Shown piece after piece: positions 51,354 to 63,439 of a DNA stretch of 64,000 nucleotides. A program made the translations under genes and the position numbers. This stretch comes from Desulfatitalea tepidiphila (GTDB lineage: Bacteria; Desulfobacterota; Desulfobacteria; Desulfobacterales; Desulfosarcinaceae). The stretch lies in NCBI RefSeq assembly GCF_001293685.1, contig NZ_BCAG01000003.1, positions 2,170,001-2,234,000 on the forward strand. The letters are read 5' to 3'. Under the pieces are notes generated by a model. It was not told where the DNA came from, did not search any database, and worked only from the letters and a program-made list of their open reading frames with translations. The first letter of the stretch is position 1, and every line of letters begins with the position of its first letter.

Positions 51354-54300
51354 ATGGAGACACCATCTGGGGAGACACCATCTGGGGAGACACCATCAGA
51401 GGCAAAAACAGGCAATCAGGATGTAACCCGGCGTTCTTTTACCGACCTCTTTATCAAACACCCGGTTCTGGCCGTGGTCGTCAACCTTGCGCTCGTCTTC
51501 GGCGGGTGGCGGGCGCTGACGGCCCTGCCGGTGCAGCAGTATCCGGACCTCCAGAGTTCCTCGGTCGTGATCACGACCGTATACACCGGCGCCAGCGCCG
51601 AGACCATCCGCGGTTTTCTCACCACCCCCATCGAACGGGTCGTGTCGGCGATCAGCGGTGTCGACCACATCGAGTCCTCCAGCCGCGCCGGCCTCAGCAC
51701 GGTCACGGTGCGCCTTAAACTGAATCATGACAGCACGGCGGCGCTGGCGGAGGTGACCGCCCGACTGCAGCAGGTTCGATCCGAGCTGCCGGCCGAAGCA
51801 GAGCCGCCGGTGGTGGAGGTGCAGCGCGCCGACCGGCCGTATGCATCGTTCTATTTGAGCTTTACCTCCACCGAGCGAACTGTTCCGGCCATTACCGACT
51901 GGCTGACCCGCACGCTGCAACCGCAGCTTGCGACCCTGGCGGGTGTCCAGCGGGTCACCATCGAGGGCGGCCGCGCCATCGCCATGCGGGTCTGGATCGA
52001 CCCCGAGCGCCTGGCCGCGCTCAACCTCTCCCCTGGTGATGTGCATGCGGCCTTGCAGCGCAACAACTACCTGGCGGCCGTGGGCCGGACTAAAGGCAAC
52101 CTGGTGCAGGTCAACCTGCTGGCCAACACCGACCTGCGCTCTGCCGAGGAGTTCAGGGAGTTGATCGTGGCCGAGCGCAACGGCGCCATGGTGCGCCTGA
52201 GGGACGTGGCGCGGGTCGAACTGGGCGCCGAGGAAGCCGAAATGGTCGCCAAGTACAACACATCCAAGGCCGTCTACCTGGGCATCTGGCCCCTGGTCGG
52301 CTCCAACGAAATCGAGGTGGCCGAACGCCTGCGCGACGAGATGGCGCGCATCCGGATAACCCTGCCCAAGGACATCGACATGCGTCTGGTGTGGGACGGC
52401 ACGATGTTCATGCGCGACGCGCTGGCGGAGATCACCAAGACCCTGGGCGAGACCATCCTGATCGTGGGCGTGGCCGTGTTCCTCTTCATGGGCTCGATAC
52501 GCACGGCGCTGGTGCCGCTGTTCGCCATGCCCGTTTCGCTGGTCGGGGCCGCCCTGGTGATGCTGGCCTTCGGGTTCAGCCTGAACCTGTTGACCATCCT
52601 GGCCATCGTCCTCTCGGTAGGCCTGGTGGTCGACGATGCCATCGTGGTGGTGGAAAATGTCGAGCGCCACGTGCGCCTGGGCAAATCGCGGATCGAGGCC
52701 GCCCTGGTCGGGGCGCGCGAGCTGGTGGGTCCCATCCTGGCGATGACCATCACCTTGGCCGTGGTTTACGCTCCCATCGGATTTCAGGGGGGCCTGACCG
52801 GCTCGCTGTTCCTGGAATTTGCCATCACCCTGGCCGCAGCGGTCGTGGTGTCGGGCATCGTCGCCGTCACCCTGTCACCGGTGATGAGTTCCCGCTTCAT
52901 CCACCCCCAGGGTCGGGAGGGCCGCCTGACCGCCCTGGTCAACCGCGGTTTCGCCCATGTGCAGCGTGTCTATGCATGGCTGCTCGACCGCGCCCTCGAG
53001 ATGCGGTGGGCGATCGTCACGGCCGCCCTGCTGATCACGGCGGCCGCCGGGCCCCTGTACCAGCAATCCCAGCGAGAGCTGGCGCCCGTGGAGGACCAGA
53101 GCCACATCAGCCTCTTTCTCGAAGCCTCTCCCGATGCCAGTCTCGAAGCGGTGGATCGCGAATCGCTCGATGTGATCGGCAACATCACGGCCTTTCCCGA
53201 GGCGGATTTCATGTGGTCGTTGACCACCCCCTGGGGCGGCTTCGGCGGCATGGTCACCCGCAACTGGAAGGAACGTGAGCGCTCCACCGCCGAGATGTAC
53301 GGCGATGTGTTCGCGACGGTGTCCCAGGTGCCCGGCCTGCGGGTGTTCCCGCGCCTCGACCCGCCCCTGCCCACGCCGGGCCAGTACGACGTCGAGCTCG
53401 TGCTCCAAAACGATGCGTCGACCGGGGAGCTGCTGGACACGGTGGCATCGGTGGTGAACGCCGGATGGCAGAGCGGCAAGTTTCTGTATGTCGATACGGA
53501 TCTGAAAATCGACCTGCCCCAGGCGCACGTGGTCCTCGACCGTGAACGGCTCTCCGACCTCGGGCTCGATCTGGCCGGTGTGGGTCAGGAACTGGGCACA
53601 CTGCTCGGCGGGGCTTACGTGAATCGTTTCAACTACTTCGATCGCAGTTACAAGGTGATCCCGCAAATCGGCGACGAGGACCGTGCCACACTCCAGCCGC
53701 TGCTCGATCTCAAGGTCAAGACCCCGAGCGGCGAGCTGGTACCGGTATCGACCTTCACCCGGATTGACACCGGCACGGCGCCGCGTGTGTTGAACCGTTT
53801 CCAGCAACGCAATGCGGCTCGGGTTTTCGGCGGCCTGCAGCCCGGTGTCACCAAGGAGGAGGGATTGCGGGTGCTCGAAGCCGCCGCGGCCGCAGTGGGC
53901 AGCCCCGGCATGTCTGTCGACTACGCGGGAGAATCCCGGCAGATCCGCCAGGAAGGCGAGGCGCTCACCGTCACCCTCGGGTTCGCCCTCGTGCTCATCT
54001 ACATGGTGCTTTCCGCCCAGTTCCAGAGCTTCCGCGATCCCCTGATCGTGCTGCTGGGCTCGGTGCCGCTGGCCATATCGGGTGCGCTGGTGTTCACCTT
54101 CCTGGATCTGACCACCATCAATATCTACTCCCAGGTCGGCCTGATCACGCTGGTGGGACTGGTGGCCAAAAACGGCATCCTGATCGTGGAGTTCGCCAAC
54201 CGGATGCAGGACCGCGGCCTCTCCAAGTCCGCCGCATTGCGCGAGGCGGCGTTGACGCGACTGCGACCGGTGATGATGACCTCGGCCGCCACGGTCTTCG

Positions 54301-56132
54301 GCCATCTGCCCCTGGTTCTGGTGTCCGGACCCGGCGCCGCCGCCCGCAACAGCATCGGGACGGTCCTTGTGGCCGGCATGTTTCTGGGGACGACGTTTAC
54401 CCTGTTCATCGTGCCGGTGTTCTACTCCCTGATTGCGGCCGGACACCGGCGGGAACGGGTAGCGGAACAGCCCATCGACAGTTTTCGCCCGGTGGCGGTG
54501 CCCGTCGGTGCGGATACCGACGTACGGGAACGGCGCCGGACGCATGGGGGCCTTGCCGGTACTGCCGCCCGTGTCGGTGACGGCCACACTGACGTCATCC
54601 ACCTGCCGGTGCAGGGCCGGGGGGTTCACGCCGGCCGACCGTTGCACCAGGTGTCGGGCCACCGGAACTGGCGGGCGCGCATGAAGCGGTGGCTGGTCTC
54701 ACATCTCTCATTGTTCATCTTGCTGACCGGCTGCACGCTGGGGCCGGACTACCGGCGTCCGGATGTGCCTGCCCCCGACGGGTGGCGGCAGGGCAAGGCC
54801 GAGGCGGCCTCGCTGGCCGACCTCACCTGGTGGGAACTGTTCAAGGACGAAGAGCTTCGCCGGCTGGTGAGGATTGCGCTGGACGCCAACAAGGACCTAG
54901 GGATCGCTGTAGCGCGGGTGGATCAGGCGCGCGCCCAACTGGGCATTGTCCGGGCGGCGCAGCTGCCGGGAATCAACGCCGGCGCCGGCGCTACTACCAA
55001 CAGGTTCTCGGAAAATGTATCTTTGCAGGGTCAGGGCGGAGAAATGGAGTTGCTGTCCACGACAGTGGATCTGACCTTTGAAATCGACATCTGGGGACGG
55101 CTCCGGCGGGCCAGCGAGGCCGCCCGGGCGGAACTCCTGGCCAGCGAAGAGGCCCGGCATACGGTGGTGATGACCCTCGTCAGCGACGTCGCCGCCACCT
55201 ATCTCCAACTCCGCCAGCTCGATCTGGAACTCGAAACCACCCGACGCAGCGTCGCATCACGCCGGGACTCCATGGATATCGTGCGTGAGCGCCTGGCGGC
55301 CGGTCTGACCTCTCCGCTCGATCTGCGCCAGGCCGAGGCCGCGCTGGCGGGCACGAGCGCCCAGATTCCTGAACTGGAACGCCGGATCGCGCAGACGGAA
55401 AACCGGCTCAGCCTTCTGCTCGGCCGTTATCCGGGCGGCATCGACCGCGGCCGGCCCCTCATCGGGCAGATTGCGCCGCCCGCCGTTCCGGCCGGGTTAC
55501 CTTCGGTGCTCCTCGAACGCCGTCCCGACCTCCGCCAGGCCGAAGCCGGGCTCGTGGCCGCCAACGCGCGCATCGGCGTGGCCAAGGCGGCTTTTTTCCC
55601 CCGAATCTCCCTGACCGGATATTTCGGGGTGGAGAGTGAGTCGCTCTCGAATCTTTTCGAGGGGCCGTCGCGCATCTGGCGGTTCGGCCCGAGCATCACC
55701 CTGCCGATCTTCACAGCGGGCCGCAACCAGGCCACCCTCGAACTGGCCGAAGCCCGACAGCGGGAAAGCCTGCTGCACTACGAGCAGGCCATCCAGCAAG
55801 CCTTCCGGGAAGCGGAAGACGCCCTCATCGCCCACCGCAAGGCCCGGGACGCACTGACCGAGCGGCACGCCGCGGTCCAGGCCTCACGGGAAGCCCTGGG
55901 CATCGCTGAGTATCGTTACGCGAGCGGCCTTTCCAACTATCTCAACGTCCTGGACGCCCAGCGCACCCTGCTCGCCGAGGAGGTGGCCGAAAGCCGGACG
56001 CTGCTGGACCAGGTCGTGGCCGTGGTGCAACTCTACCGCGCGTTGGGCGGCGGCTGGGAAGACGAACAGGTCGATACACGGTCATCGGCCGGTCGACGAC
56101 CGATTTCTATGCAAGCTGACGCAAGGAGGTAA
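51354..56132 (+). CDS. RND efflux permease fused in frame to an outer-membrane efflux lipoprotein (NodT/OprM type)
   Basis: One uninterrupted frame of 1592 codons. Residues about 25-1040 are a complete AcrB-type pump (FIKHPVLAVVVNLALV; TM4 region SVGLVVDDAIVVVENVE with its two Asp; TM10 region VGLVAKNGILIVEFANRM). About 1041-1109 is an Arg/Gly/His-rich linker without homology. Residues 1110-1592 (from ATG 54681) are a full outer-membrane channel: lipoprotein signal FILLTGCTLGPDYRRP, two efflux repeats, RRPDLRQAEAGLVAANARIGVAKAAFFP and YRYASGLSNYLNVLDAQRTLL. Normally these are two genes. Either the pump lost its stop or frame near 54450, or translation restarts at 54681 (only a weak GGAA ribosome site). 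AGGAGGTGA upstream of 51354 is strong. Confidence 0.88.
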   Translation: METPSGETPSGETPSEAKTGNQDVTRRSFTDLFIKHPVLAVVVNLALVFGGWRALTALPVQQYPDLQSSSVVITTVYTGASAETIRGFLTTPIERVVSAISGVDHIESSSRAGLSTVTVRLKLNHDSTAALAEVTARLQQVRSELPAEAEPPVVEVQRADRPYASFYLSFTSTERTVPAITDWLTRTLQPQLATLAGVQRVTIEGGRAIAMRVWIDPERLAALNLSPGDVHAALQRNNYLAAVGRTKGNLVQVNLLANTDLRSAEEFRELIVAERNGAMVRLRDVARVELGAEEAEMVAKYNTSKAVYLGIWPLVGSNEIEVAERLRDEMARIRITLPKDIDMRLVWDGTMFMRDALAEITKTLGETILIVGVAVFLFMGSIRTALVPLFAMPVSLVGAALVMLAFGFSLNLLTILAIVLSVGLVVDDAIVVVENVERHVRLGKSRIEAALVGARELVGPILAMTITLAVVYAPIGFQGGLTGSLFLEFAITLAAAVVVSGIVAVTLSPVMSSRFIHPQGREGRLTALVNRGFAHVQRVYAWLLDRALEMRWAIVTAALLITAAAGPLYQQSQRELAPVEDQSHISLFLEASPDASLEAVDRESLDVIGNITAFPEADFMWSLTTPWGGFGGMVTRNWKERERSTAEMYGDVFATVSQVPGLRVFPRLDPPLPTPGQYDVELVLQNDASTGELLDTVASVVNAGWQSGKFLYVDTDLKIDLPQAHVVLDRERLSDLGLDLAGVGQELGTLLGGAYVNRFNYFDRSYKVIPQIGDEDRATLQPLLDLKVKTPSGELVPVSTFTRIDTGTAPRVLNRFQQRNAARVFGGLQPGVTKEEGLRVLEAAAAAVGSPGMSVDYAGESRQIRQEGEALTVTLGFALVLIYMVLSAQFQSFRDPLIVLLGSVPLAISGALVFTFLDLTTINIYSQVGLITLVGLVAKNGILIVEFANRMQDRGLSKSAALREAALTRLRPVMMTSAATVFGHLPLVLVSGPGAAARNSIGTVLVAGMFLGTTFTLFIVPVFYSLIAAGHRRERVAEQPIDSFRPVAVPVGADTDVRERRRTHGGLAGTAARVGDGHTDVIHLPVQGRGVHAGRPLHQVSGHRNWRARMKRWLVSHLSLFILLTGCTLGPDYRRPDVPAPDGWRQGKAEAASLADLTWWELFKDEELRRLVRIALDANKDLGIAVARVDQARAQLGIVRAAQLPGINAGAGATTNRFSENVSLQGQGGEMELLSTTVDLTFEIDIWGRLRRASEAARAELLASEEARHTVVMTLVSDVAATYLQLRQLDLELETTRRSVASRRDSMDIVRERLAAGLTSPLDLRQAEAALAGTSAQIPELERRIAQTENRLSLLLGRYPGGIDRGRPLIGQIAPPAVPAGLPSVLLERRPDLRQAEAGLVAANARIGVAKAAFFPRISLTGYFGVESESLSNLFEGPSRIWRFGPSITLPIFTAGRNQATLELAEARQRESLLHYEQAIQQAFREAEDALIAHRKARDALTERHAAVQASREALGIAEYRYASGLSNYLNVLDAQRTLLAEEVAESRTLLDQVVAVVQLYRALGGGWEDEQVDTRSSAGRRPISMQADARR
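51357..51401 (+). repeat. three 15-bp tandem repeats at the start of the RND pump gene
   Basis: GAGACACCATCTGGG is repeated three times right after the ATG (last copy slightly changed), encoding ETPSG-ETPSG-ETPSE. Other RND pumps lack such an N-terminal extension. Because the unit is 15 bases, copy number changes would keep the frame. Confidence 0.85.
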
Positions 56133-59967: not shown

Positions 59968-61182
59968 TTAGCGTCCCTCCCGTGCCGCTGACGACAGGTG
60001 CTGACCGATGGCGAGCAGCCGGCCGTCGTCCAGCCGCCGGCCGATGAGTTGCAGGCCCGTATCCCGATCCGCGGCCACTCCCGGGTTCGGCACCTGCAGG
60101 GCCGGATGGCCGGTGACGCTGGCCGGCAGGGTCAGTGCAAAGACCGCATAGGTCGCTTGGATCGTGGCCGCCTGCGCCGGATCTGAAGCCGGGCGCCGGG
60201 TGGGCAAGACGAGGATGTCCACCTTCCCGAGCAGATCGTCGACCGCCCGCACCAACCGGCAGCGGAGACGGCAGGCGTTCTCAAAGGCAAGGTAACGTTC
60301 GAACTGGAAATAGGCGCCTTGGAAAAGAAAAGGTTTGAGCAGCGGCCCGAAGCTTTCCGCCCGGGTGTTCAGGTACATGTCGTTCCAGTTTTTGCCGACC
60401 GCACTGCGGTGACCGTAACGCACGCCGTCGAATTTTCCTGCACTTGAAGAGGCCTCCACTGCGGCGATCAGGTGGTGCACATCCTTAAATAGCCCGTAAT
60501 CGGCCAGGTTGACCGTCTGGATGGTGACGCCGGCGGTCTCGAGACACGCCGTACCCGCATCGAAGGCGAGGCGTTCCTCCGGATCGAGGCTGCTCAAGCT
60601 CTCTTCGATGACCCCGGCCGTCAATGATTCTGTGCCGGACGGCGGCGCCGCGCTGAAACCGGCCGTGCAATCGTCGGGCATGGAGGGGTCGTCGGGGTCT
60701 GCGCCGGCCATGACCGCCAGAATTTCTGCGATCATGCGAGGATCTGCAGCGGCCAGGCCGATACTCTCCATGGAAGGCACCAGGCCGGCCAGGCCGTGCC
60801 GCGAGACGAGGCCGTGGGTGGGTTTCAGGCCGAAAAGACCGGAACCGGCAGCGGCCAGACGGACCTCGCCCATGGTGTCGGTGATCAGGGCCACGTCTGC
60901 GTGGCCGTCGACGAGGGTCCGGGCCGATGTGTCGCCGGCCAGTCCGAAACCCAATTCGGCCATGCGCGAACTGCCGCTCAACACGGCGCCGGCCTTGACC
61001 AGGCGGGCGACGACCGTGGCATCCTGCAGGGCGGTATAGCCGGACAAGGCGCGCGAACCGGCCTCGCAAGGCCATCCCCGCACCGCCAGATTGGGTTGTA
61101 CCGCCACCCGCAGGTCCGCGAGTGTTCCCTCCGGGGTGATTCGGGATGGTGACGCGTTACTGTAAGTGTAAACCTCGTGCAT
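59968..61182 (-). CDS. GatA-like amidase homologue lacking the catalytic Lys-Ser-Ser triad
   Basis: 404 residues versus about 485 for GatA. Homology is clear: DATVVARLVKAGAV, LFGLKPTHGLVSRHGL, AEASSSAGKFDGVRYGHR, and RRLDDGRLLAIGQHL. But the residues of the amidase triad are gone. VAIKDN of GatA is VAVQPN here (Gln29 for Lys); the glycine/serine-rich GGSSGGS segment with the bridging Ser is deleted (about 18 residues); and TDTGGSIR is TDTMGEVR (Glu106 for the nucleophile Ser). The N-terminal ~60 residues are also shortened. So it should not hydrolyse glutamine; a structural role in GatCAB is possible (inference). GAGG 8 bases before the ATG; between aspS-gatC and gatB in the operon. Confidence 0.85.
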   Translation of the reverse strand: MHEVYTYSNASPSRITPEGTLADLRVAVQPNLAVRGWPCEAGSRALSGYTALQDATVVARLVKAGAVLSGSSRMAELGFGLAGDTSARTLVDGHADVALITDTMGEVRLAAAGSGLFGLKPTHGLVSRHGLAGLVPSMESIGLAAADPRMIAEILAVMAGADPDDPSMPDDCTAGFSAAPPSGTESLTAGVIEESLSSLDPEERLAFDAGTACLETAGVTIQTVNLADYGLFKDVHHLIAAVEASSSAGKFDGVRYGHRSAVGKNWNDMYLNTRAESFGPLLKPFLFQGAYFQFERYLAFENACRLRCRLVRAVDDLLGKVDILVLPTRRPASDPAQAATIQATYAVFALTLPASVTGHPALQVPNPGVAADRDTGLQLIGRRLDDGRLLAIGQHLSSAAREGR

Positions 61183-61194
61183 CCGTATGACCTC

Positions 61195-63315
61195 TCAATC
61201 CAGGACGGCGGCCGTCTTGAAGAAACCGCCTTTTTCTGCGGGTGCGTTTTTAAACAGCTCGCCGTTTTCCGACAGGGAATGGATACGTGCCTCGCGGCCT
61301 TCCCGGAACCGGTTGGATACGGCCGCGACCCGGAAGAGCGGCGCATCCTGCGGGGAGGCCTGCCGATTGACCCGGTCGGCACAGGCGGCGGCCTGTGCCA
61401 GTGCATCGGCGATGGCCGGCCGTTCCGGGTCGCCGATGCCGATGCGCGACACCCACGATAAGGTCTCGATCTGGTCCTTCTTCGCATGGGCGCCGGGCAG
61501 CGGGCGGTCCCCCCCCAGATCGAGCAGGCCCAACTCCTCCAACTGCGCGGAGGCCACCGTCGATGGGGCCTGGGTCAGGGGGCAAAAGGCGCTGCGATTC
61601 TTGGGAAAGGCGATCACCTCGCGGATCGAGGCGGCGCCCAGAATCATGGCCACGACCCGGTCGATGCCCAGGGCGATGCCACCGTGCGGCGGGGCGCCGA
61701 ATTCCAGCGCCTTGAGGAAGAAACCGAATTTTTCAGCCACCTCCTGCTCACCCAGCCCTAGGGCCTGCAAAATGCGCTGTTGCAGGCCGCGATCGTTGAT
61801 GCGGATGCTGCCGCCCCCCAGCTCTTCGCCGTTCATCACCAGATCGTAGGCGCGCGAGCGCAGGGCAAGCAATTCGTCTATGTTTCCGGGATCGAAATCG
61901 GTCCGGTCCGGCATGGTAAACGGGTGGTGGCTGGACGTAACGCCCTCGTCCGCGGCCTCGAACAGGGGAAAATCGGTGACCCACAGCGGGTAATAGACGC
62001 CTTGGGGAATCATATCCAAACGGTGGGCCAGGTGCAGGCGCAACTGCCCCAAGGCCGTGCAGACCAGGGACCAGGAGGGATCGGCGATCATGAGAATGAC
62101 GTCTCCCGGCTTGGCGTCGAAGCGTTCGAGAATCCCCATGCGCTCCGCTTCGCTGAAGAACTGCACGATATTGGATTCCAGTCCGCCGTCCATCACCCGC
62201 ATCCAGGTCATGCCCTTGGCCCCGAATCCCGGCACGATCTCCTTGGCATATTCGTTCTGCAGCACATTCTTGCTCAACCGTTCGGACGCGCCTTGGACGT
62301 TGATCCCCTTGATGCAGCCGCCGCGTTCGAGAATCTGTTTGAAAATACCGTAGCGGGTTTGGGTGAAGAGATCGGTGGCGTCCTGGAAAGTCATGCCGAA
62401 GCGCAGGTCGGGGCGGTCCGAACCGCTGCTGTTCATGGCATCCTGCCAGGTCATGCGGGGAAAGGGACGCGACAGGTCGATACCGCCGATCTTGAACATG
62501 CGGGCGGTGAGCTCCTCGAAAAGCGTGTAGAGGTACGCCTCGTCGATGAACGAGGCCTCCAGGTCCAGCTGGGTGAATTCCGGCTGCCGGTTGGGCCGCA
62601 GATCCTCGTCCCGGAAACAGCGCACGATCTGGAAATAGCGCTCCATGCCGCCCACCATGAGCAGTTGTTTGAATAACTGCGGCGATTGGGGCAGTGCGTA
62701 GAAATTCTTTGGAAAATGGCGGCTGGGCACGAGATAGTCCCTGGCCCCCTCGGGGGTGCTCCGGGTCAGCATGGGGGTTTCCACCTCGACAAACCCCTGC
62801 TCGTCCAGAAAATCTCGTATGGACTTGACGATGCGATGACGCCGGATCAAGTGCTCCTGCATGTTGGGACGCCGCAAATCCAGGTAGCGGTATTGCAGCC
62901 GCAAATCCTCTCCCACCGTCTCTTCGCGCTTGACGGCGGCGCCGGCAGTCATGGATTTTTCCGAGATCTGAAACGGAAGGGCAGCGCACCGGCCGAGAAT
63001 ATCCAGGTCCGCGGCCACCACCTCGATGCCACCGGTGGCGATGCCGGGATTGTCGGTGCCTTCGGCCCGCTCGATCACCCGGCCGGTGACCTGCACGCAG
63101 AATTCGCTTTTCAGCTCGGCGGCCTTGTCGCAAACCGCCTGGGGCGTGCTTTCGGGGGTAAATACGACCTGCACGATACCGCTGCGGTCGCGCAGGTGAA
63201 TGAAGAGAACCTCTCCGTGATCCCGGAGGGCGTCCACCCAGCCGGCCAGGGTGACCTCTTTCCCGGCATCGGCCAGACGCAGCTCTCCACAGCTGGATCG
63301 GTCATGGTGTGGCAT
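61195..63315 (-). CDS. aspS: aspartate--tRNA ligase fused to GatC (AspRS-GatC)
   Basis: 706 residues. Residues 1-~600 are a complete bacterial AspRS: anticodon-binding OB fold (TLAGWVDALRDHGEVLFIHLRDR), class II motif 2 (FRDEDLRPNRQPEFTQLD), GAD insertion domain and motif 3 (GIALGIDRVVAMILG). Residues ~617-706 are GatC-like (TLSWVSRIGI near its start, LSENGELFKNAPAEKGGFFKTAAVLD at its end). The His in RDHG is the residue found in non-discriminating AspRS, which also charges tRNA-Asn with Asp. Fusion with GatC would hold the amidotransferase on the synthetase. The ATG at 63315 has AAAGG 8 bases upstream; a longer start at 63405 adds 30 non-homologous residues. First gene of the gat-guaA-hisF run. 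Confidence 0.92.
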   Translation of the reverse strand: MPHHDRSSCGELRLADAGKEVTLAGWVDALRDHGEVLFIHLRDRSGIVQVVFTPESTPQAVCDKAAELKSEFCVQVTGRVIERAEGTDNPGIATGGIEVVAADLDILGRCAALPFQISEKSMTAGAAVKREETVGEDLRLQYRYLDLRRPNMQEHLIRRHRIVKSIRDFLDEQGFVEVETPMLTRSTPEGARDYLVPSRHFPKNFYALPQSPQLFKQLLMVGGMERYFQIVRCFRDEDLRPNRQPEFTQLDLEASFIDEAYLYTLFEELTARMFKIGGIDLSRPFPRMTWQDAMNSSGSDRPDLRFGMTFQDATDLFTQTRYGIFKQILERGGCIKGINVQGASERLSKNVLQNEYAKEIVPGFGAKGMTWMRVMDGGLESNIVQFFSEAERMGILERFDAKPGDVILMIADPSWSLVCTALGQLRLHLAHRLDMIPQGVYYPLWVTDFPLFEAADEGVTSSHHPFTMPDRTDFDPGNIDELLALRSRAYDLVMNGEELGGGSIRINDRGLQQRILQALGLGEQEVAEKFGFFLKALEFGAPPHGGIALGIDRVVAMILGAASIREVIAFPKNRSAFCPLTQAPSTVASAQLEELGLLDLGGDRPLPGAHAKKDQIETLSWVSRIGIGDPERPAIADALAQAAACADRVNRQASPQDAPLFRVAAVSNRFREGREARIHSLSENGELFKNAPAEKGGFFKTAAVLD

Positions 63316-63439
63316 CGTCGCCGCCTTTCTTTGGTGACAGTTGACCCCATTGTCATGGTCGGCCCTGCGGCCGTCCCGTCCCAAAAAACGTCGGGACGTT
63401 ACCATCGCGCTCCGGGCGGGTCAACGCAATTATCGACAT

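Follow-up and report, generated by a model that had tools for sequence, protein, structure and literature searches.

Published accounts describe the synthesis of tRNA-bound Asn and Gln by GatCAB as dependent on glutamine, GatA being the source of the ammonia. What would a GatA do if its glutaminase were gone? The question is raised by a gene in the window (the whole stretch of DNA that was analysed, 64,000 nt), which an earlier note, made from the sequence alone, described as a GatA homologue that has lost all three amidase residues. The explanations offered there were a structural pseudo-GatA, the use of free ammonia, or a new role. The gene and its product are called pGatA (pseudo-GatA) below.

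The losses in pGatA and its relatives

The frame of pGatA is intact, as had been claimed, but it lies on the minus strand (61182..59968). It begins with ATG and encodes 404 aa with zero internal stops; the plus-strand reading of the same stretch contains stops. The reported gene order of AspRS-GatC, GatA and GatB also holds. On the minus strand AspRS2-GatC' is followed after 12 nt by pGatA and after 1 nt by GatB2, and then come a GuaA-like and a HisF-like gene (Table 1). The first three genes are referred to as the cassette.

Table 1. Positions of the cassette genes, of selected parts of them and of the two genes that follow, in window coordinates
Feature	Coordinates	Strand	Basis
pGatA, pseudo-GatA, 404 aa, glutaminase residues gone	59968..61182	minus	TIGR00132 219 bits, 82/82 loci, AlphaFold2 model, PDB matches
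Gln29 codon, replaces catalytic Lys of GatA	61096..61098	minus	alignment
Glu106 codon, replaces nucleophile Ser of GatA	60865..60867	minus	alignment
AspRS2-GatC', 736-aa bacterial-type aspartyl-tRNA synthetase with C-terminal GatC-like domain	61195..63405	minus	NCBIfam, Pfam, tree
GatC-like tail of the fusion (final 110 codons and stop)	61195..61527	minus	PF02686, hhalign
GatB2, 475 aa, kinase/transamidase subunit, remodelled DYRYFPDPD loop	58539..59966	minus	PF02934, PF02637
GuaA-like ATP-PPase and C-terminal domains, without GATase domain, 330 aa	57482..58474	minus	TIGR00884
HisF-like stand-alone protein, 257 aa	56672..57445	minus	TIGR00735

Alignment bears out each of the three losses. Gln29 takes the place of the catalytic Lys and Glu106 that of the nucleophile Ser, and after Asp84 there are 22 missing alignment columns that span most of the GGSSGGS segment. 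The N-terminus is also about 49 residues shorter, ahead of the Lys position, than that of GatA1, the canonical GatA of the same genome. pGatA passes the Pfam Amidase model PF01425 (169.9 bits against a cut-off of 27), and its 219 bits with the GatA equivalog TIGR00132 lie under the curated cut-off of 481.1.

Are these losses peculiar to one genome? A search of 60 genomes, its own included, found pGatA orthologues in six others (48-90% identity). A collection of species genomes was then scanned with two peptide patterns taken from parts of pGatA other than the active site. Of the 104 relatives that this found, the best 80 were combined with one further locus (L043) and the window to give 82 loci, repeat genomes (L042, L044-L047) having been dropped. 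Selected in this way, the 82 loci represent the pGatA clade rather than every GatA at such loci. Their identity to the pGatA of the window is 42-90%. At the Lys position they have Gln (72), Glu (6), His (2), Trp (1) or Arg (1), so that none of the 82 keeps Lys. All 82 have gaps at the first five GGSSGGS residues and in the cis-Ser column, and all 82 have Glu at the nucleophile position. Throughout the set, the window included, the Ser-cis-Ser-Lys glutaminase triad is absent, which supports the view that glutaminase chemistry has been lost.

Other positions have become fixed in its place. Gly105, Glu106, Trp266, Asn267, Gln288 and Gln293 are specific to pGatA and invariant in all 82 loci, Asp102 is retained in 81, and 23 diverse pGatA sequences share 48 invariant columns. 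Compared with two relatives, pGatA has NG86 dN/dS values of 0.31 and 0.29; its neighbours give 0.09-0.22 by the same comparison, with AspRS2 and GatB2 at 0.14-0.22. Purifying selection acts on pGatA.

By a confident prediction the fold is still that of GatA. The AlphaFold2 model, for which 23 sequences were the input, has a mean pLDDT of 89.5 and a pTM of 0.91. Its top Foldseek match is the GatA of a transamidosome (3kfu_E, TMq 0.89), and structural alignment with 3kfu_H gives a VIA Z of 45.4 over 397 residues (rmsd 2.3). This agrees with the claim that the rest of the protein stays GatA-like, but the substrate side, which the claim had included, does not. Y310, R361/R362 and D429 of GatA1, which we take to bind glutamine, are retained in 0 of 82 pGatA, so this side cannot be called GatA-like. 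The literature consulted on GatA did not confirm the glutamine-binding identity of these Tyr, Arg and Asp positions.

Partners in the cassette and a fusion type that has an intact GatA

The AspRS part of AspRS2-GatC' scores 682.4 bits with TIGR00459 (cut-off 373.85), contains the synthetase, GAD and OB domains of Pfam and can be aligned over its full length with solved AspRS. The best model for the protein is NF009460 (PRK12820), bifunctional AspRS/amidotransferase subunit C, which matches residues 22-736 with 1207.4 bits. This is below the cut-off of 1379, a value exceeded in 0 of 395 genomes drawn from the phylum, and the model holds no information on a neighbouring GatA. The tail of the window fusion scores 19 bits with the GatC family PF02686 (E 0.0016; cut-off 23 bits). 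At E<=1 the family is matched by 16 of 16 fusion tails, the best at 2.9e-7.

One residue at the anticodon position of AspRS, either His or Leu, presumably governs the recognition of tRNA-Asn. AspRS2 has His there, like the Asp/Asn AspRS of P. aeruginosa (4wj3_M); the AspRS of T. thermophilus has Leu. The His is present in 69 of 69 readable AspRS2 (of 80). AspRS2 thus has the His of a non-discriminating AspRS, and judged by this residue it probably aspartylates tRNA-Asn. The His alone cannot set AspRS2 apart, because the stand-alone AspRS1 likewise has it in 43 of 49 sequences read.

GatB2 passes the curated cut-offs of NF004012 (564.4 bits against 338) and TIGR00133 (485.2 against 314.8). The residues that we take to be the active site and zinc site have been kept: E10, H12, K79, E125, E126, D127, D145, E155 and four Cys in 81 of 81 sequences and N147 in 80 of 81. 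The KEEAxDYRYFPDPD of canonical GatB1 has not. In its place eight of the nine GatB2 rows shown have KFxG-PC[VI]PDP, and the other (L125) has KFDV-PYIPEP. Given the loss of this loop, the chemistry of GatB2 may differ too.

A second group of fusions, at seven loci (L250-L256), scores 955-994 bits with NF009460. The order of its genes is that of the cassette, but the adjacent GatA has the triad and the presumed glutamine-site residues intact (7/7) and the adjacent GatB retains DYRYFPDPD (6/6 read), whereas in the cassette the triad is lost and the GatB2 loop is replaced. The tails of these fusions match GatC in 6/6, and a profile of pGatA-type tails matches them with an hhalign probability of 96.9%. 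Such loci appear to encode a covalently tethered, glutamine-competent transamidosome, and no description of a tethered AspRS-GatC fusion with intact GatA was noticed in the open-access literature. One genome (G313) carries both types of fusion.

How are the two types related? A midpoint-rooted tree of 49 AspRS rows (16 pGatA-type fusions, 6 intact-type fusions and 27 stand-alone enzymes) splits the fusions from the stand-alone AspRS (SH-aLRT 100), with both types on the same side of the split and supports of 97 for the pGatA type and 91 for the intact type. The GatA tree took in 17 of the 82 pGatA, 6 of the 7 intact-fusion and 16 of 31 canonical rows, and was rooted on three other amidases. 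In it pGatA forms one clade (support 100) on a branch of length 4.38, and because of this length the tree does not fix the exact sister of pGatA. Five rows of GatB2 are 34-40% identical to intact-fusion GatB and 41-43% to canonical GatB1. Since GatB2 is no nearer to the former than to the latter, common descent is supported for AspRS only; as sequences, GatA and GatB are too divergent to prove that the cassette descended as a unit.

Relatives therefore give a divided answer to the question, raised in the earlier note, of whether they share the losses: every pGatA orthologue examined does (82/82), but the related fusion clade has an intact GatA (7/7). With all pGatA dead while that clade is intact, the glutaminase loss can be read as an old, fixed change. 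The dead GatA looks like the derived state, and a single loss in the pGatA branch would be the simplest reading. The intact-GatA fusion and the pGatA fusion would then be a before-and-after pair.

An accessory cassette with a patchy distribution

The cassette is not the only gat set of the cell. Elsewhere in the same genome (5.6 Mb in 7 contigs, completeness 98%), contig C1 carries complete genes for GatC, GatA and GatB, and this second gatA, for which the earlier note had proposed a search, encodes a protein that carries GGSSGGS and GSDTGGS. A stand-alone AspRS (793.8 bits), an AsnRS (608.1 bits) and two AsnB-family matches are also present. The complete GatCAB, the stand-alone AspRS and the AsnRS make the cassette an accessory one.

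A companion survey covered 56 cassette genomes (7 genomes and 49 of the 80 loci). Canonical GatA occurs in 53 of them, so the idea of pGatA as sole GatA of the cell was dropped for these as well as for the genome at hand. At least two AspRS matches are found in 53 of 56; G007, G044 and G077 have only one. The search for AsnRS was positive in 27 genomes and negative in 29, and the positive ones rule out the cassette as a general replacement for AsnRS. The AsnB family also covers other amidotransferases. Matches to it occur in 35 of the 56, and the cassette was rejected as a general stand-in for asparagine synthetase on that count. In the AspRS1 comparison, which used loci from 50 of the 56 genomes (G094 without an ORF), six of the 27 genomes that lack an AsnRS match have Leu at the D/ND position, against none of the 22 with such a match (Fisher p 0.027, kinship uncorrected). 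A second position presumed to bear on discrimination is Gly in these six, and many of them are draft MAGs. Perhaps the cassette is the sole source of Asp-tRNA(Asn) in the six Leu genomes, although this is only suggestive.

Where pGatA occurs, the rest of the cassette nearly always does. AspRS2 was found at 78 of 80 loci, the exceptions being L125 and L128, and the contig of L128 begins only at pGatA. GatB2 was found at 79 of 80, the exception being L103, where the contig ends. L125, from a MAG labelled Lentisphaerae, has pGatA and GatB2, and AspRS2 was not found within 8 kb upstream. At L116 GatB2 lies in two frames.

The distribution itself is patchy. In the phylum survey, which scored at most four pGatA and two fusion candidates per genome, pGatA (E<=1e-95) was found in 17 of 395 genomes and the AspRS-GatC fusion (E<=1e-270) in 23, 17 of which reach at least 1070 bits. 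These two sets of 17 have 16 genomes in common. Of the unshared genomes, G175 has pGatA only as a 132-aa piece (L249) and in G494 AspRS2 is split over two frames (L257). The 80 loci are labelled Thermodesulfobacteriota (43), Deltaproteobacteria (22) or other (15), and 16 of the 22 labelled Deltaproteobacteria are filed under Myxococcota in the lineage table. The carriers are mainly relatives of sulfate-reducing bacteria. The 15 other-labelled loci may reflect transfer or mis-binning.

Probable use of free ammonia, and the alternatives

On balance we lean towards a reading in which pGatA is the conserved dead GatA subunit of a second, tethered Asn transamidosome that runs on free ammonia. This unites two explanations of the earlier note, the structural pseudo-GatA and the use of free ammonia, which jointly seem to explain the locus best in light of the fixed losses and the kept GatB2 residues. 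AspRS2 would charge tRNA with Asp, and the non-discriminating His at its anticodon-recognition position makes tRNA-Asn the probable substrate. GatC' and pGatA would hold GatB2 beside AspRS2. GatB2 would phosphorylate the side-chain carboxylate with ATP and then amidate the activated Asp using ammonia from solution rather than glutamine. pGatA would keep the complex assembled and would probably be the ammonia entrance, with Asp102 and Glu106 lining the former glutaminase pocket, perhaps as an acidic port. In this scheme we infer the formation of the complex, its tRNA specificity, the ammonia donor and the role of Glu106. The fixed losses, the purifying selection, the near-universal cassette, the kept GatB2 residues and the His of AspRS2 support it.

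There is a precedent for the chemistry. Yeast GatFAB in which GatF is truncated can use ammonium chloride for transamidation, the glutaminase step being bypassed (PMC4027206). Several observations count against the ammonia-driven transamidosome, however. The genome has its own AsnRS, a full GatCAB and two AsnB-family matches, which leave no evident need for the cassette, and the canonical GatA that accompanies it so often could supply a glutaminase. The patchy spread, the broken copies, the lost DYRYFPDPD loop of GatB2, an extra amidase gene at L062 and L067 and the sparse linkage of the GuaA-like (3/82) and HisF-like (9/82) genes do not favour it either.

What if the glutaminase is borrowed? 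GatA1, an unlinked amidase or a GATase could dock on pGatA as an adaptor and feed AspRS2-GatC'/GatB2. Canonical GatA is at hand in those 53 of 56 genomes, and the GatA fold with its own invariants W266, N267, Q288 and Q293 could form a docking surface. L062 and L067 also have a PF01425 amidase gene close to the cassette. However, pGatA fills the site where GatA1 would have to sit, and a neighbour scan, which took in representatives of clusters shared by at least four loci plus the L062/L067 amidase, found no glutaminase family in the eight clusters besides HisF (one of them without a Pfam hit). We think such borrowing unlikely. The amidase gene of L062 and L067 (12634-14106; 339.4 bits in L067) lies about 3.5 kb past the cassette, and it possibly encodes a separate amide hydrolase or glutaminase.

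A similarly improbable idea is that the set does not amidate at all, and that the complex binds Asp-tRNA or GatCAB partners and so tunes the canonical pathway. The full canonical set is there to be tuned, and pGatA evolves faster (dN/dS 0.31, 0.29) than AspRS2 and GatB2 (0.14-0.22). A role free of catalysis would not, however, demand that GatB2 keep the presumed active-site and zinc residues and that AspRS2 align throughout with solved AspRS. It is harder still to credit that another nucleophile, an amine or a sulfide, attacks the tRNA-bound Asp activated by GatB2 to give an unusual aminoacyl-tRNA. This would fit a set that has lost its glutaminase while retaining the presumed active-site residues of GatB, and in which GatB2 has class-specific changes (DYRYFPDPD to PCVPDP), but the recurrent neighbours that were scanned include no recognisable enzyme for making a donor, the window is without a tRNA gene, and ammonia is the simplest nucleophile. 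Finally, a decaying gene (which the earlier note would have seen here had relatives been intact) or an assembly deletion has next to nothing in its favour beyond the broken cassette genes of G175, G494 and L116: the same losses in 82/82 loci from many assemblies rule out assembly error as the cause of the missing segment, and together with a dN/dS of about 0.3 and an intact pGatA frame they speak against recent decay.

How does an ammonia-driven, tethered transamidosome compare with known systems? The Asn-transamidosome (PDB 4wj3 from P. aeruginosa, and 3kfu) is like the cassette in its AspRS with His, its GatC-like component, its GatA fold and its GatB residues. It differs in that the cassette AspRS and GatC are one polypeptide, the GatA glutaminase residues are lost, GatB is without the DYRYFPDPD loop and the cassette stands second beside a canonical set. 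The known complex is glutamine-dependent, whereas the pGatA of the cassette is without triad and presumed Gln-binding residues. The glutaminase-dead, synthetase-fused set is best seen as a variant of the known transamidosome. In the open-access literature we found no description of an AspRS-GatC fusion, a pseudo-GatA or an inactive GatA, and to our knowledge no other transamidosome has dropped glutamine.

There are also parallels outside the transamidosomes. CPS1 differs from GatCAB in fold and reaction, and AsnA produces free rather than tRNA-bound Asn, without GatB chemistry; Tse8, presumably, is not a gat-cassette gene. By analogy only, the cassette can be likened to mammalian CPS1, which retains an inactive glutaminase-like domain and draws its ammonia from the environment (PMC4655335). 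AsnA, the ammonia-dependent asparagine synthetase, makes Asn from ammonia, as proposed for the cassette (PMC4206432). Tse8 is an amidase-family protein, and transamidosome and GatCAB are mentioned in its paper (PMC12283126). Extra AspRSs were catalogued in a 2014 survey that covered 547 genera. Besides Deinococcus-Thermus it lists 15 genera that have them, mainly from Actinomycetales and Clostridiaceae, and the section on these enzymes does not name a fused AspRS-GatC/dead-GatA set (PMC4206432). If the ammonia reading is true, a transamidase can run on free ammonia in nature, the cassette is a bacterial counterpart of CPS1, and there is a ready system for studying roles of GatA besides glutamine splitting.

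The two genes that follow the cassette in the window have a bearing on this. The GuaA-like protein scores 305.2 bits with TIGR00884 (cut-off 338.75), and elsewhere the genome encodes a GuaA of 509 aa that has both the GATase and the GMP_synt_C domain. The HisF-like protein scores 280.3 bits with TIGR00735 (cut-off 294.55), and elsewhere a 535-aa ORF joins HisH and HisF. The GuaA-like gene is linked to the cassette only in the window and two relatives, and it is here and in two relatives that both genes form the tail of the operon. Three glutaminase-less synthases with glutamine-type doubles elsewhere point to free ammonia, which is circumstantial support. As evidence for ammonia the HisF linkage is weak, because HisF is a separate protein in most bacteria and four of the seven scored pass the ordinary HisF cut-off (L072, L082, L111 and L112; the window, L043 and L085 are just under). 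The only neighbour cluster commoner than the HisF-like one is a histidine-kinase cluster (11 loci).

A broader proposal, which we put forward tentatively and with some doubt, is that the whole operon is a glutamine-free module, in which an ammonia-only tRNA-dependent Asn synthase is joined by paralogues of GMP synthase and imidazole-glycerol-phosphate synthase that have no glutaminase. If true, the module would run its amidations on ammonium and the glutamine-dependent versions would be kept for other conditions.

The remainder of the window adds little to this. No tRNA genes were found in its 64,000 nt, and a scan for promoters and terminators was uninformative (one promoter-like site where 2.1 were expected; 10 terminator-like sites where 7.1 were). 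On the plus strand at 51354-56132 a frame of 1592 aa seems, by eye, to join an RND efflux pump to an outer-membrane-factor-like sequence, which may be either a genuine fusion or an effect of the frame.
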